Source: Mitsuaria chitosanitabida ATCC BAA-476 = NBRC 102408 (lineage in GTDB: Bacteria; Pseudomonadota; Gammaproteobacteria; Burkholderiales; Burkholderiaceae_C). Taken from it: a DNA stretch of 64,000 nt. The translations under genes and the position numbers were made by a program. Below the pieces are notes generated by a model, which saw nothing but the letters and a program-made list of their open reading frames with translations, was not told where the DNA came from and ran no database searches. Position 1 is the stretch's first letter, and every line of letters begins with the position of its first letter. The stretch lies in contig NZ_BCYP01000010.1 in the NCBI RefSeq assembly GCF_001598255.1, forward strand, positions 124,001 through 188,000, given 5' to 3'. Shown piece by piece: positions 42,676 through 49,417 of the stretch.

Positions 42676-45365
42676 AGCGGGCCGCGCCGCCCTCGGCGAA
42701 CGACGCGGCGGACTCGCCGGCGGGCCCCGGCGCGCGAGCGTCCTCCGTCATCGAGGAGTGGCTCGCGGAGAAGGGCTGGACGCCGTTCCCCTTCCAGCGC
42801 CGCGTCTGGGCGGAGATGGCCGCCGGTCGCAGCGGTCTGCTGCACTCGAGCACGGGCAGCGGCAAGACGCTGGCCGTGTGGCTGGGCGCGCTCGGCGCCC
42901 TGCGCGAGTCGGTCGGCGAGGCGACGCTCGCGCGCGGCAAGCCGGTGGCGCCCCCACTGGCCGTCCTGTGGATCACGCCGATGCGGGCGCTCGCGGCCGA
43001 CACGCTGCGGGCGATCGAGGCGCCGATGGCCGCGCTGTGCCCCGCCTGGAGCGCGGGCCTGCGCAGCGGCGACACCACGACCTCCCAGCGCGCCGCGCAG
43101 GACCGGCGCCTGCCCACGGTGCTGGTCACCACGCCGGAGAGCCTGTCCCTGCTGCTGTCCCGGGCCGACGCGAGCGAGCAACTCGGCCGCGTGCGTCTGG
43201 TCGTCGTCGACGAATGGCACGAGCTGATGGGCAACAAGCGCGGCGTGCAGACCCAGCTCGCGCTGGCCCGGCTGCGGCGCTGGCGGGCGGCACGTGGCGC
43301 CGGCCTCATGACCTGGGGGCTCTCGGCGACGCTGGGTCATCTGGACGAGGCGTTGCGGACGCTGGTCGGCACCGGATCGGCCGCTTCGACGTCCGCTTTC
43401 GACGCCGATGCCGATGCCGATGCCGATGCCGATGCCGATGCCGATGCCGATGCCGACGCCGCTTCCCTGCCGGCATCGACCGCCGCGACCGCATCCGGGT
43501 CGCGCGTCGGGGCCACCGCGTCGCGAGAGGCCGTGCTCGTGCAGGGCGAGACCGACAAGACCCTGATCATCGACACGCTGCTGCCCGAGACGGTCGAACG
43601 CTTCGCCTGGGCCGGACACATGGGCCTGCGCATGCTGCCCCAGGTCGTGGACGCCATCGCGTCGAGCGCGAGCAGTCTGGTCTTCACCAACACGCGCTCG
43701 CAGGCGGAGCAGTGGTATCGCGCGCTGCTCGGGGCCCGGCCCGACTGGGCCGGCGTACTGACCTTGCACCACGGCTCGCTGGACCGCGAGCTGCGGGAGT
43801 GGGTCGAGCTCGGGCTGAAGGAAGGCCGGGTGAAGGCGGCGGTCTGCACCTCCAGCCTGGACCTGGGCGTCGACTTCCTGCCGGTGGAGCGGGTGCTGCA
43901 GATCGGCTCGGCCAAGGGCGTGGCGCGGCTGGTGCAGCGGGCCGGCCGGTCGGGCCATGCGCCAGGTCGACCGTCGCGGATCACGCTGGTGCCCACGCAC
44001 GGGCTGGAGCTGGTGGAGGCCGCCGCGGCCCGCGAGGCCGTGCGGCAGGGGCGCATCGAGTCGCGACACAGTCCGCGCGAGCCGCTGGACGTGCTGGTCC
44101 AGCACCTGGTCACCGTCGCGCTGGGCGGCGGCTTTCGGCCAGAGGCGCTGCGCGAGGAGATCGGCACGACCGTGGCCTACGAGGCGCTGCCGGACGCCGC
44201 CTGGCAGTGGTGCCTGGACTTCGTGCGCCAGGGCGGTCCGTCGCTGACCGCTTATCCGGACTATCACCGCGTGGTGCCCGACGAGGACGGGCTCTGGCGC
44301 GTGCCCGACGCGCGACTGGCGCGCCGTCACCGGGCCAACATCGGGACCATCGTCAGCGACGCGGCGATGCAGGTGCGGTTCATCACCGGCGGAAGCCTCG
44401 GCACCGTCGAGGAGAGCTTCATCGCCCGCCTGAAGCCGGGCGATGCCTTCATGTTCGGGGGCAGGCTGCTGGAGCTGGTGCGCGTCGAGCAGATGACCGC
44501 GCTGGTGCGGCGCGCTGCCTCGAGCCGGGCGGCGCTGCCGCGCTGGAACGGCGGCCGGATGCCGCTGTCCAGCACCCTGGCCGATGCCGTGCTACGTGAA
44601 CTGGCCGAGGCGGACGAGGGCCGCTTCGACTCGCCGGAGATGCGCGCCGTGCGGCCGCTGATCGACGTGCAACGGCGATGGTCCGGCGTGCCGCGCCCGG
44701 ACACGCTGGTGGCCGAGACGCTCAAGACGCGGGAGGGCTGGCATCTGTTCCTCTATCCCTTCGCCGGCCGCCAGGTGCATCTCGGCCTGGCGGGCTTGAT
44801 GGCCTGGCGGGCCGCGCAGCCGGAGGCGGGCACCTTCTCGATCGCGCTGAACGACTACGGGTTGGAGCTGCTGAGCGCCCGCCCCATCGACTGGGCCGAG
44901 CGCCTCCCGGGCTTGCTGCGCGTGCCGCCCGAGGCCGCCTTGCTGGACGAGGTCCTGGCCAGTCTGAACGCCACCGAGCTGGCGCGGCGCCGCTTCCGCG
45001 AGATCGCGCGCATCGCGGGACTGATCTTCCAGAGCCATCCCGGGGAGCGCCGCAGCAGCCGCCAACTGCAGGCGTCGGCGACCCTGTTCTTCGAAGTCTT
45101 CCAGCAGTACGACCCCGGCAACCGGCTGCTCGCGCAGGCGGAGCAGGAATTGCTGACGCAGGAGCTGGATCTGCGCCGCCTCGCGGACGCCCTGAGGCGG
45201 ATGGCGGGGCAGACCTTGCGGATCCATGCGCTCAAGCGTCCCACGCCGCTGGCCTTTCCGCTGATGGTCGAGCGCTTCCGCGAGAAGCTGAGCAACGAAT
45301 CGCTCGCGGATCGGCTGGCGCGCATGGTGGCGTCGCTGGAACGCAGCGCGGGTGACCCCACATGA
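42672..45365 (+). CDS. Ligase-associated Lhr-like DEXH-box DNA helicase
   Basis: An 897-aa superfamily 2 helicase of the Lhr core type. It starts with GTG overlapping the ligase stop (GTGA). Motif I is SSTGSGKT (61-66), II is VVVDEWHEL (DEWH 180-183), III is GLSATLG, and motif VI-like is [17 protein letters not shown] winged-helix and Lhr C-terminal domain follow. Between motif III and the second RecA lobe lies (Asp-Ala)10 at residues 244-263, encoded by a hexanucleotide array, in a place where the family normally has a short loop. Related proteins are ATP-driven 3'-5' translocases on single-stranded DNA. Confidence 0.9.
43401..43460. repeat. In-gene hexanucleotide array (GATGCC)8
   Basis: Eight perfect GATGCC units flanked by one GACGCC at each end, in frame, encoding ten Asp-Ala pairs in the helicase. 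Confidence 0.92.
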
Positions 45366-46119: not shown

Positions 46120-46356
46120 TCAGAGGTGGAAGCCGCCGACGTCGGTGTGGAAGTCGCCGACCTCGGTCCATTCGCGCAGGTCGGACGGGACGGCGAAGTG
46201 CTTGGCGAGCTCGCCGGCCGCTTCCTCGGCGGTGGCGAAGGACTCGCCCCAGGGCATGCTGTCGTGTTTCACGCGCCAGCGCTTGGACAGGCGCGGCTTG
46301 ATCGTGAAGGTGCCGTCCAGGCTCTGGAACACGTAAGAGACGGTGTCGAGGTCCAT
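46120..46356 (-). CDS. Small conserved-looking protein of unknown function
   Basis: A 78-aa soluble protein, MDLDTVSYVFQSLDGTFTIKPRLSKRWRVKHDS, then an amphipathic helix SFATAEEAAGELAKHFAVP and a short end. The start at 46356 has GGAG 9 nt upstream; the longer frame is GC-driven. No motif or partner recognised. It is convergent with pdeM (32-nt gap) and divergent from the EF-hand gene. Confidence 0.6.
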   Translation of the reverse strand: MDLDTVSYVFQSLDGTFTIKPRLSKRWRVKHDSMPWGESFATAEEAAGELAKHFAVPSDLREWTEVGDFHTDVGGFHL

Positions 46357-46506
46357 GCTGTGCGCTCCGGATCGCCTCCAAGCGGCGACCCTAACGCATG
46401 TGGCGGCAACTGTCATGCCCGCGTCGCGCGCGGTGGGGACGGGCGGAGTGGCGGACGGGCCGGTCCCGACGGCCGCGGGAAGGGCCTCGGACTCACGCGG
46501 GTGCGC

Positions 46507-46573
46507 ATAGGGCATGGCGCGCGCAGCGCGCGGGGCGGGCGGCATCGCGCTTGCCGCACCATGCGCACCCTAT
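46507..46573 (+). promoter_or_regulatory. Long-range hairpin covering the start of the EF-hand gene
   Basis: ATAGGG (46507-46512) and CATGG (46513-46517) can pair with CCATG (46559-46563) and CCCTAT (46568-46573); the last two bases are the first two of the start codon. A GCGCGC-GCA-GCGCGC hairpin lies inside. No purine-rich ribosome site is visible, so translation may depend on this structure opening. Confidence 0.4.
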
Positions 46574-48704
46574 GAAAAATTCCTGGCGATTCTTCCGGGC
46601 GGGCGGTGCCGATCAGGCACGCATCAGTACCGCCGACGACCTGCTCCAACTGCGCGACCTCGACCAGAAGCGCTGGGTCGCGCTGGCCTGCCCCACGCGC
46701 GGCCTCGAATTCGACGAACGCACCCTCGACCTGATCGACCTGGACCGCGACGGCCGCATCCGCGCGCCCGAACTGGTCGCCGCCTGCGAATGGGTCGGCG
46801 CGCGCCTGCGGGACTGGGACCCGCTGCTGCGCGGCGAGTCGCGGCTGGCGATCGCCTCGCTGGCCGACACGGAGGAAGGCCGCGCGCTGGCCGAGGAGGC
46901 GCGGCGCACGCTCACACTGGCGGCGATGGACACGCACGCCGATATCGGTCTCGAGGAGATCCGCGAGCGCCAGACCCATCTGACGACCGAGCGCCACAAC
47001 GGCGACGGCATCGTGCCGGTCGAGTCCTTCGAGGACGCCGCCGAGCGCGCGCTGGCGCGACGCATCGGCGAGACCCTGGGCACGGTGGCCGACGCGGGCG
47101 GCGAGCCGGGCATCGACGAGACGCGCATCGCCACCTTCTTCGACCAGGCGGCGACGCTGCTGGCCTGGCATCGCGAGGGCGAGGCCGATTGCGCCGGCCG
47201 GCGCGCCGCCGCGATGGCGGTGCAGGCGGTGCATGACAAGGTGGAGGACTTCTTCGCCCGCTGCCGACTGGCCAGCTACGACGCCTCGGCCGCCGCGACG
47301 CTGAACGCGACCGATCCGGAGCAGCTCAAGCAGCACGCGTCGGCGCTGCTGTCGCTCGACGCGGGACCGCTGCGGCAACTGCCGATGGCGCCGGTCGCGG
47401 CCCACGCGGCGCTGCCGCTGGACGATCGCGCGAATCCGGCGTGGCGCGTCGCGCTGGGGACGCTGCGCGAGCAGGCCGTGCGGCCGCTGCTGGGCCGCGA
47501 CGCGACGGAGATCACCGAGACCGACTGGCGCCTGCTCAAGGAGCAGGTGCAGGCCTGTCGCGAGTGGCTGTCGCGCCAGCCCACCGGACCGGTGGCCGCG
47601 TTGGGCGTGGACGCGGTGGCGGCGCTGGTCGGCGCCGCGGCGGTGGAGGACGCCGCGGGCGGGAGCGCCGATGGCGCCGAGGCGCTGCGGGCACGGCTGC
47701 TCCAGCGCATCGAGGAGGACCGCGCGGCCGCGCCGCGGCATGCGGCCCTGAACGACCTCGAGAAGCTGGTGCTGCTGCAGCGCGGTCTGCTGCGGCTGGC
47801 GCGCAACTTCGTGTCCTTCGAGGACTTCTACGAGGGCGACGGCGCGGTGTTCCAGGCCGGCACGCTGTTCCTGGACGGGCGCGCCTGCGAGCTGACGGTG
47901 GAGGTGGCCGACCCCGCCAAGCACGCCGGCATCGCGGGTCTGGCCAAGGCCTACCTGGCCTACTGCGAATGCACGCGCCTGAACCAGAAGCGGACCATCG
48001 TGGCGGTGGTCAGCGCGGGCGACGTGGACTTCCTCTTCGTCGGCCGCAACGGGCTGTTCTACGACCGTGAGGGTCAGGACTGGGACGCGCGCATCGTCAA
48101 GGTGATCGAGAACCCGATCAGCGTCGGCCAGGCCTTCCTGTCGCCGTACAAGAAGCTGGTGCGGCTGGTCGAGGAGCAGGTGGCCAAGCGCGCCGCGGCC
48201 AGCGACACGATGCAGCAGGGCAAGCTGGGCGACCTGGCTGGGCGCATCGCCACGGCCGACAAGGCGGCCGATCCCGCGGCCCCGGCGGCGCCCGCCGCGC
48301 CGGCCGGCGTCCCGGGCGCCCCGGGCCGGCGCGTGGACGTCGGCACCGTGGCCGCCTTGGGCGTGGCGCTGGGCAGCATCAGCACGGTGATCGTGGGCCT
48401 GTTCGGGCGCTTCGTGGACCTGGGGTGGTGGATCCCGCTGGCGCTGGTGGGGATCATGCTGTCGATCTCGGGACCGAGCATGCTGATCGCGTGGCTGAAG
48501 CTGCGCCAGCGCAGCCTGGGTCCGATCCTGGACGCGAGCGGCTGGGCCATCAACAACCGGATGAAGCTGAGCACGCGTCTGGGCACCTCGCTGACCAAGC
48601 GCCCGCCGCCCGTGCCGCATGCGGTGAAGCTGCCCGAGGTGCCGGCGCTGCGCCGGCGCGGCGCACAGGATCCGGACGTCGGGAACGAGGCGACGGCTGG
48701 CTGA
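46572..48704 (+). CDS. Large EF-hand membrane protein of unknown function
   Basis: A 710-aa protein I cannot assign to a described function. Near the N-terminus DLDRDGRIRAPE (residues 56-67) is a complete 12-residue EF-hand calcium loop in LDLIDLDRDGRIRAPELV. A second, weaker loop-like stretch is RHNGDGIVPVESFE. The middle is helical, including LNDLEKLVLLQRGLLRLARNFVSFEDFY. The segment YLAYCECTRLNQKRTIVAVVSAGDVDFLFVGRNGLFYDREGQDWDARIVKVIENPISVGQAFLSPYKKLVRLVEEQV looks the most conserved. An Ala/Pro hinge leads to two membrane helices (about 592-612 and 617-645) and a basic tail. It stands alone. Confidence 0.78.
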   Translation: MKNSWRFFRAGGADQARISTADDLLQLRDLDQKRWVALACPTRGLEFDERTLDLIDLDRDGRIRAPELVAACEWVGARLRDWDPLLRGESRLAIASLADTEEGRALAEEARRTLTLAAMDTHADIGLEEIRERQTHLTTERHNGDGIVPVESFEDAAERALARRIGETLGTVADAGGEPGIDETRIATFFDQAATLLAWHREGEADCAGRRAAAMAVQAVHDKVEDFFARCRLASYDASAAATLNATDPEQLKQHASALLSLDAGPLRQLPMAPVAAHAALPLDDRANPAWRVALGTLREQAVRPLLGRDATEITETDWRLLKEQVQACREWLSRQPTGPVAALGVDAVAALVGAAAVEDAAGGSADGAEALRARLLQRIEEDRAAAPRHAALNDLEKLVLLQRGLLRLARNFVSFEDFYEGDGAVFQAGTLFLDGRACELTVEVADPAKHAGIAGLAKAYLAYCECTRLNQKRTIVAVVSAGDVDFLFVGRNGLFYDREGQDWDARIVKVIENPISVGQAFLSPYKKLVRLVEEQVAKRAAASDTMQQGKLGDLAGRIATADKAADPAAPAAPAAPAGVPGAPGRRVDVGTVAALGVALGSISTVIVGLFGRFVDLGWWIPLALVGIMLSISGPSMLIAWLKLRQRSLGPILDASGWAINNRMKLSTRLGTSLTKRPPPVPHAVKLPEVPALRRRGAQDPDVGNEATAG

Positions 48705-48856: not shown

Positions 48857-49417
48857 TCAGTCGAGCTGCGACGGCGTGGTGCCGCGGTGCGCCGGTCCGC
48901 CGAGGACATCGGCCTTGCCGCTGCCGTTGCCATTGGTCCCGGGGTGCTTCTTGCGCTTGCGCACGACCTTGGGGCCCCACTCGAGGATGGCGAAGGCCAG
49001 GAGGGTGCTGAGCACGGCGGTGGCCTCGCGGCCGAGTCCGCAGGCCACGCCGATGGCGGCGACCATCCAGATGCCGGCGGCGCTGGTCAGGCCGTGGACC
49101 TGTTCCTCGTCGGTGAGCTTGAGGATGGCGCCCGCGCCGAGGAAACCGATGCCGGCGATGACGCCTTGCATGACGCGGCTGAGGTCGGTGAGGTGCATCC
49201 CGCCTTGCTCGGGCACGAGCACGAAGAGCGCCGCGCCGATGGACACCAGCATGTGGGTGCGCATGCCCGCGGCCTTGCCATGCTGCTCGCGCTGATAGCC
49301 GAGCAGCCCGCCGAGCGCGGCGGCCAGCAGCAAGCGGACGGTGATGCGGGTGAGCTGCTGGACATCCGGGATGTCCGAGAACTCGTCACGCAGGGTCGCG
49401 AGGATCGCGTCGATCAT
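48857..49417 (-). CDS. MgtC/SapB-family membrane protein
   Basis: A 186-aa protein with the MgtC N-terminal domain: ITVRLLLAAALGGLLGYQREQHGKAAGMRTHMLVSIGAALFVLVP, VMQGVIAGIGFLGAGAIL and LTSAAGIWMVAAIGVACGLG, giving four or five membrane helices. The C-terminal cytoplasmic domain of virulence-type MgtC is absent; only a short Lys-rich and Gly/Asn tail follows. Family roles range from Mg-starvation response to inhibition of F-type ATP synthase in pathogens; which applies here is unknown. Confidence 0.88.
   Translation of the reverse strand: MIDAILATLRDEFSDIPDVQQLTRITVRLLLAAALGGLLGYQREQHGKAAGMRTHMLVSIGAALFVLVPEQGGMHLTDLSRVMQGVIAGIGFLGAGAILKLTDEEQVHGLTSAAGIWMVAAIGVACGLGREATAVLSTLLAFAILEWGPKVVRKRKKHPGTNGNGSGKADVLGGPAHRGTTPSQLD

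Follow-up and report, generated by a model that had tools for sequence, protein, structure and literature searches.

A membrane-anchored bacterial protein family with one conserved canonical EF-hand loop

We analysed a 64-kb stretch of the Mitsuaria chitosanitabida genome (64,000 nucleotides, hereafter the window) and found that one of its genes encodes a 710-residue membrane-anchored EF-hand protein, the window protein, with relatives in several bacterial phyla. The protein carries a canonical EF-hand loop that is conserved among these relatives; its domain order is described here from an AlphaFold2 model, and its C-terminal membrane segments appear both in hydropathy and in that model. The reading we prefer, and to which we would give about an even chance, is that of a cytosol-facing protein anchored in the membrane, in which the first EF-hand, EF1, binds Ca2+ and controls or conditionally stabilises the rest of the molecule. 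Bacterial cytosolic Ca2+ signalling is a long-debated question with few candidate sensors; the family offers such a candidate, usually encoded by a single-copy gene and with one conserved predicted site.

Results

Gene and protein

The gene is read from an ATG at 46572, and its interval in Table 1 includes the stop codon. A second in-frame ATG lies 58 codons upstream, at 46398; in the homologues, however, similarity sets in no more than a few residues from the shared WxFFRAGG motif, so that translation probably starts at 46572. The genome holds a single copy of the gene. Homologues in six genomes of the same genus share 79–84% identity with the window protein, one of them being matched as two pieces, and the nearest named relatives among the matches listed are Mitsuaria and Roseateles records and one Rubrivivax MAG (76–82% identity); in our tree the window protein adjoins a Mitsuaria row. 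A sequence-only reading of this DNA had described a 710-aa frame with an EF-hand loop at residues 56–67 and two C-terminal membrane helices. The frame, its length and the loop are borne out by the ORF, its translation and a motif check, and the two helices by hydropathy peaks and by helices in the AlphaFold2 model.

Table 1. Features of the window protein and its gene, in window coordinates
Feature	Residues	Position	Strand	Evidence
Gene for membrane-anchored EF-hand protein, 710 aa		46572..48704	+	ORF, translation, homologue identity, shared start motif
EF-hand loop 1, DLDRDGRIRAPE, sole canonical loop	56–67	46737..46772	+	Conservation, AlphaFold2
Degenerate EF-like loop, NGDG, without conserved acid at position 12	143–146	46998..47009	+	Conservation, AlphaFold2
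Degenerate third EF-like loop, DxxGxPGI	174–181	47091..47114	+	Conservation, AlphaFold2 strand 179–181
Helical middle region	183–415	47118..47816	+	AlphaFold2; mostly pLDDT >90, dips near 241–270 and 351–370
Conserved small beta domain	425–515	47844..48116	+	AlphaFold2 strands 430–512, conservation
Long helix	518–560	48123..48251	+	AlphaFold2
Membrane helix 1 (TM1)	590–615	48339..48416	+	AlphaFold2 helix; hydropathy 2.21 at 593–611
Membrane helix 2 (TM2)	620–645	48429..48506	+	AlphaFold2 helix; hydropathy 1.93 at 621–639
Conserved positively charged segment after TM2, KLRQRSLGPILDASGWAIN	643–661	48498..48554	+	Conservation, K/R counts

Conservation of the EF-hand loop

Loop 1 has the make-up of a canonical EF-hand loop: ligands occupy positions 1, 3, 5 and 12, position 6 is glycine and position 8 is hydrophobic. 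It is the only match to the strict pattern DxDxDGx[ILV]xxxE in any of the window's six reading frames, and since only 9 of 20,000 shuffles of the window protein reproduce this pattern, the loop is not an accident of composition. The insignificant Pfam scores of the single protein would suit a motif that arose by chance in an otherwise ordinary helical protein, but the shuffles and the retention of the loop across phyla speak against this explanation, which the conservation counts given below refute and to which we assign next to no probability.

We aligned the window protein with 79 of the best-scoring 80 loci out of at least 538 relatives found by N-terminal patterns, excluding L075, whose frame is broken. 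In the resulting 80 rows D56, D60, R64 and E67 never vary, and D58 is present in 73 and G61 in 76; positions 56, 60 and 67, which supply three of the four side-chain ligands, are among 68 invariant columns. Since the selection of these rows had rested on N-terminal patterns and top scores, we collected a second set through residues 386–566 only, taking 50 loci from 64 matches (the 30 best and 20 chosen lower) minus two genes already counted. All 48 of its rows have D56, D60 and E67, and 46 have G61; at position 58, 40 rows have D, 7 have N and 1 has S.

A wider alignment of 165 members, the window protein included (163 distinct sequences), takes in 40 distant members from Verrucomicrobiota, Myxococcota and Planctomycetota that were found via the membrane segment alone and chosen from the gene-carrying genomes of these phyla (20 of 71, 13 of 89 and 7 of 24, respectively). 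The 145- and 165-row sets exclude seven rows, namely L075, a fragment, three genuine repeats, and the non-repeats L123 and L133, whose loops retain their ligands. At loop positions 1, 3, 5 and 12, 158 of the 165 rows are ligand-competent (160 of 167 with L123 and L133), a count that permits E at position 3 and any residue at position 6; 142 rows are also canonical, with D, N or S at position 3 and glycine at 6. Taken singly, position 1 is D in 163 rows, position 3 is D, N, S or E in 163, position 5 is D, N or S in 161 (D or N in 160), position 6 is G in 151, position 9 is R in 160, position 11 is P in 126 and position 12 is E in 159. The sequence-only reading had named a loop unconserved in orthologues as one result that would overturn it, and in this comparison the loop proved conserved apart from a few distant losses.

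On a tree of 99 of the 165 rows, rooted by midpoint only, the seven ligand losses need at least five events, all inside one distant 33-row branch, and none falls among the other 66 rows, the branch of the window protein. A three-row clade from the Myxococcota sample (L217, L218, L226) has Q or R in place of E at position 12, which breaks the site, and two of its members have K at position 5. The loop 1 site is thus old and strongly kept by most family members, and a few lineages can do without it; in the lineages that lost ligands, the losses count against metal binding in the core function. The loop is conserved as expected of a working metal site.

These counts bear on the idea that loop 1 no longer binds Ca2+ physiologically and serves as a fold element or a site of protein contact, like an inactive EF-hand. 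An arginine in position 9 of the loop is unusual for EF-hands, and this residue, the proline at position 11 and the seven rows that lost ligands would all suit such a loop, the first two being marks of the family. Retention of D at position 1, D or N at 5 and E at 12 at the levels given above would be unexpected of an inactive hand, and we consider this explanation unlikely. Physiological binding of a divalent ion by EF1 is, in our judgement, quite probable.

EF-like repeats and the N-terminal domain

Loop 1 is followed by two degenerate EF-like loops that span about residues 120–181. In the NGDG loop, N143 and G144 are present in all 80 rows of the first set, D145 in 77 and G146 in 79, the corresponding counts in the wider set being 151, 157, 153 and 159 of 165; the AlphaFold2 model places a strand at 148–149 between helices 127–139 and 156–169. 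The DxxGxPGI loop has G180 in 80 of 80 and 155 of 165 rows and D174 in 58 of 80, and likewise shows no conserved acid at position 12. Five of the 48 rows of the second set are without the second EF-like region and one more has a decayed copy; all six retain loop 1. The second EF-like region is absent, and loop 1 canonical, in a sub-clade formed by L136–L139 and L155, with frames of 632–637 aa in L136–L139. Lineages of this kind, together with those that lost ligands, are natural built-in controls.

In the full model, helices 49–55 and 65–78 flank loop 1 and a short strand lies at 62–64, the helix-loop-helix with loop strand by which an EF-hand is recognised, with a pLDDT of 97 over residues 51–80. 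The N-domain modelled alone (pLDDT 84.7, pTM 0.58) keeps both helices, lacks the strand and is of lower confidence at residues 41–70 (pLDDT 59–83). A profile of the N-domain matched 21 PDB sequences, 20 of them titled EF-hand proteins and the other named ubiquitin; the best E-value, 0.001, is summed over repeats, with no stretch individually significant (i-Evalue 8.6). With a whole-protein profile, positions 137–197 aligned weakly with a calcium-binding EF-hand protein (E 0.8–1.6). Nearly all of the 50 Foldseek matches listed for the N-domain model are EF-hand proteins or complexes by title, with E-values of at least 0.19, and its fold matches to calmodulin lobes have Z-scores of at most 4.3; such matches agree with EF-hands without proving their arrangement. 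Pfam EF-hand models score the window protein below their gathering thresholds (PF13202, 13.1 bits against 25.9; PF13405, 12.9 against 25), and when 58 members were scanned singly, weak EF-hand matches were the commonest Pfam result (32 of 58, best E 8.9e-4). It is therefore the loop, its conservation and the model, not Pfam membership, that lead us to call the window protein an EF-hand protein. The sub-threshold Pfam scores, the weak Foldseek and Z values and the less certain lone N-domain model all weigh against the reading of EF1 as a controlling Ca2+ site.

The strongest rival to that reading is a purely structural site: EF1 would always be loaded with Ca2+ or Mg2+ and hold the N-domain, the protein would be no sensor, and its job would lie in the beta domain and the membrane segment. 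One canonical hand with degenerate partners is what this would lead us to expect, as is the retention of the remainder of the protein in the ligand-loss lineages, and the most conserved 12-residue windows fall elsewhere, within residues 29–44 and 632–661, the loop 1 window ranking 121st of 699. The invariance of positions 56, 60 and 67 and the persistence of loop 1 where the second EF-like region is lost are points on the other side, although neither separates structural from regulatory use. We regard a structural site as a serious possibility that falls somewhat short of probable.

Domains beyond the EF-hand

Where the sequence-only reading had recognised no domain beyond the EF-hand, the model adds degenerate EF-like loops, a beta domain and further folded parts, so that description was too narrow. 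AlphaFold2, given a 58-row alignment, modelled the whole protein with a mean pLDDT of 87 and a pTM of 0.73, in the order EF region, helical middle, beta domain, long helix, low-confidence linker and two membrane helices. Whole-model fold searches returned no convincing match in the PDB (best E 0.15), with VIA-align (best Z 4.9) or in a viral library (best E 0.15); this lack of a match does not in itself speak for a new fold. The top whole-model PDB rows, the toxin subunits PaxB and XaxB, align with an rmsd near 10 and were set aside.

Several residues of the beta domain are well conserved across the 165 rows: the nearly invariant H451 in 164, R437 in 158, D435 in 154, G483 in 163, G491 in 162 and F496 in 163. 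This conservation would fit an enzyme or ligand-binding protein with its site in the beta domain (H451, R437, D435) and an EF-hand that tunes it, a reading compatible with the one we prefer. The replacement of D435 by G, A or N in 11 rows argues against it, as does the lack of similarity to solved enzymes by profile (one match, E 3.3) or by whole-model fold, and we rate it as improbable.

Membrane segments and topology

After residue 560, three hydrophobic segments are present in 69 of the 80 rows and two in 11, namely the window protein with its clade mates L015–L019, and L033, L061, L066 (where the contig end cuts it), L085 and L088. The double anchor proposed by the sequence-only reading holds for the window protein; three segments are the family norm, and two are found in its clade and five other rows. 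The exit segment after TM2, KLxxRxLGPxLDAxGWAxN, ranks among the most conserved parts of the protein: K643, L644, R647, G650, P651, L653, A655, W658, A659 and N661 are invariant in 24 aligned rows, and in the 165 rows K643 is found in 158, R647 in 161, P651 in 134, W658 in 158, A659 in 162 and N661 in 164. Each row has on average 4.05 K/R at 641–664, against 0.79 in the TM1–TM2 loop and 1.9 at 575–590 before TM1. By the positive-inside rule, positive charges flanking membrane helices mark the cytosolic side, and the excess after TM2, together with the absence of an early hydrophobic segment in 73 of 80 rows, suggests that the EF domain is cytosolic. The window protein is among the seven rows that have an early segment, and its peak, the third in its hydropathy profile (340–358), is a mild point against a simple topology; the stretch is Ala-rich and the model puts it in the soluble helical part.

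Proposed function

Under the preferred reading of a Ca2+-controlled membrane-anchored protein, the first EF-hand (residues 49–78) would bind one divalent ion, most likely Ca2+, with the degenerate EF-like repeats as its structural partners. Ion binding would control, or at least conditionally stabilise, the helical and beta domains, which the C-terminal helices would hold at the inner membrane with the EF side in the cytosol, and the positive exit segment after TM2, predicted to be cytosolic, probably contacts lipid or a partner. A calcium-responsive membrane regulator is accordingly plausible as a description. Two more points tell against the preferred reading: at least five lineages dropped the ligands yet kept the protein, so that metal binding is not essential everywhere, and R occupies loop position 9 in 160 of 165 rows. 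A more specific proposal, which we treat as a long shot, is a Ca2+-gated family, in which Ca2+ at EF1 would move the long helix and gate or remodel the two- or three-helix membrane segment; this segment would be a channel, transporter or membrane-shaping device, and the conserved TM2 and exit segment its output.

Relation to known EF-hand proteins

Calerythrin, CabB and CabC are small and soluble, with no membrane segments. The window protein resembles these actinomycete calmodulin-like proteins in being bacterial, in having a canonical EF-hand loop and in its predicted intracellular placement, and differs from this small soluble type in its one canonical hand, its 710 residues and its two membrane helices. 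Calerythrin is described as an intracellular buffer with four EF-hand motifs and three Ca2+ sites, and CabB has four motifs according to a title cited there (PMC10574481). EfhP (PA4107) of Pseudomonas aeruginosa is described as envelope-associated; it takes part in Ca2+ homeostasis and has two EF-hands predicted to be periplasmic (PMC4053335). Going by that description, it shares with the window protein the trait of an envelope-associated bacterial EF-hand protein, whereas the EF domain of the window protein is predicted to be cytosolic. Schaffer et al. 2020 describe prokaryotic fusions of EF-hands with 7TM, Tic110-like, haem oxygenase, NADPH oxidase, sulfatase and other partners; these likewise couple EF-hands with membrane or effector modules, Verrucomicrobia included, and none of the named partners considered here fits the domain order of the window protein (PMC7016017). 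The XopAW family calcium-binding effector model (NCBIfam NF041410) matched 7 of 58 members weakly, with a best E-value of 0.015, far below significance; we take this match to come from the EF-hand motif and claim no common architecture.

The literature searched, which took in PMC3123361 and few subscription papers, yielded no description of the family, of its domain order or of its DxDxDGRIRxPE signature. The family is apparently undescribed, while bacterial EF-hands and their fusions to membrane parts are already known (PMC7016017, PMC10574481, PMC4053335).

Distribution and detectability

When one genome per species was scanned with the N-terminal patterns, at least 538 relatives emerged, the pool from which the first set was drawn. 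Near home the gene is patchy, occurring in 7 of 16 genomes in the genus, 64 of 399 in the family and 11 of 299 in the phylum Pseudomonadota; farther off it occurs in 71 of 145 Verrucomicrobiota, 89 of 146 Myxococcota, 24 of 149 Planctomycetota and 3 of 101 Gemmatimonadota genomes, the names of these four phyla being taken from the records of the seed loci, and every tally counts the own or seed genome, which was picked for having the gene. The gene is common in Verrucomicrobiota and in Myxococcota, the latter including tractable myxobacteria, provided that a laboratory strain has the gene. To call the protein simply uncharacterised, as the sequence-only reading did, understated the case, since these tallies make it a member of a phylum-spanning family.

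No Pfam or NCBIfam model reached its cut-off on the window protein, and NCBIfam matches among the 58 members were scattered, with a shikimate transporter model in 6 of 58 and a single GltJ match as the best (2.5e-4). Routine annotation would probably miss the family, because no model for the whole of it emerged in these scans. PADLOC gave no match for the window protein and one insignificant match among two relatives. No phage match was found, and 23 stretches of viral contigs that fitted the pattern included no relatives. A conjugative Aeromonas salmonicida plasmid (L095) carries at 1784–2125, near tet(Y), an unannotated fragment of the family that corresponds to query residues 373–484 at 48% identity. 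Family genes at L010 (G050), G184, G221, G1152, L144 and L075 have in-frame stops or frame breaks, which may reflect decay or sequencing error.

Gene neighbourhood

Upstream of the EF-hand gene lie genes for an Lhr-type helicase and a calcineurin-like phosphoesterase, and downstream, in convergent orientation, an MgtC family gene at 48857–49417 (−; Pfam E 4.8e-37). When ORFs in the flanks of 80 loci were clustered, linkage was found mostly inside genera, among the matches listed. Larger cross-group clusters were discarded as apparent antisense or out-of-frame readings of the EF-hand gene, or as common gene types (kinases, response regulators) of varying place and strand. The gene lists of thirteen flanks, compared by eye, have neighbours in common between the window and L017, which belong to one genus, and differ elsewhere. 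Neither the 80-locus clustering nor these thirteen lists, in which a minority of neighbours carry an identification, showed a recurring partner gene. As flanks differ outside the genus and no partner recurs, the neighbours give no clue to the output, which is a further point against the preferred reading of EF1 as a controlling site. L017 has a similar-looking gene at the MgtC position, and the pairing of EF-hand and MgtC genes may be genus-specific. A small divergent ORF of about 78 aa at 46120–46356 (−), which starts MDLDTVSYVFQSL, has relatives in five close loci (L015–L019) and no Pfam match when scanned without its first residue. Within the Lhr helicase ORF, ten Asp-Ala dipeptides follow one another at 43401–43460 as a short, simple coding repeat.
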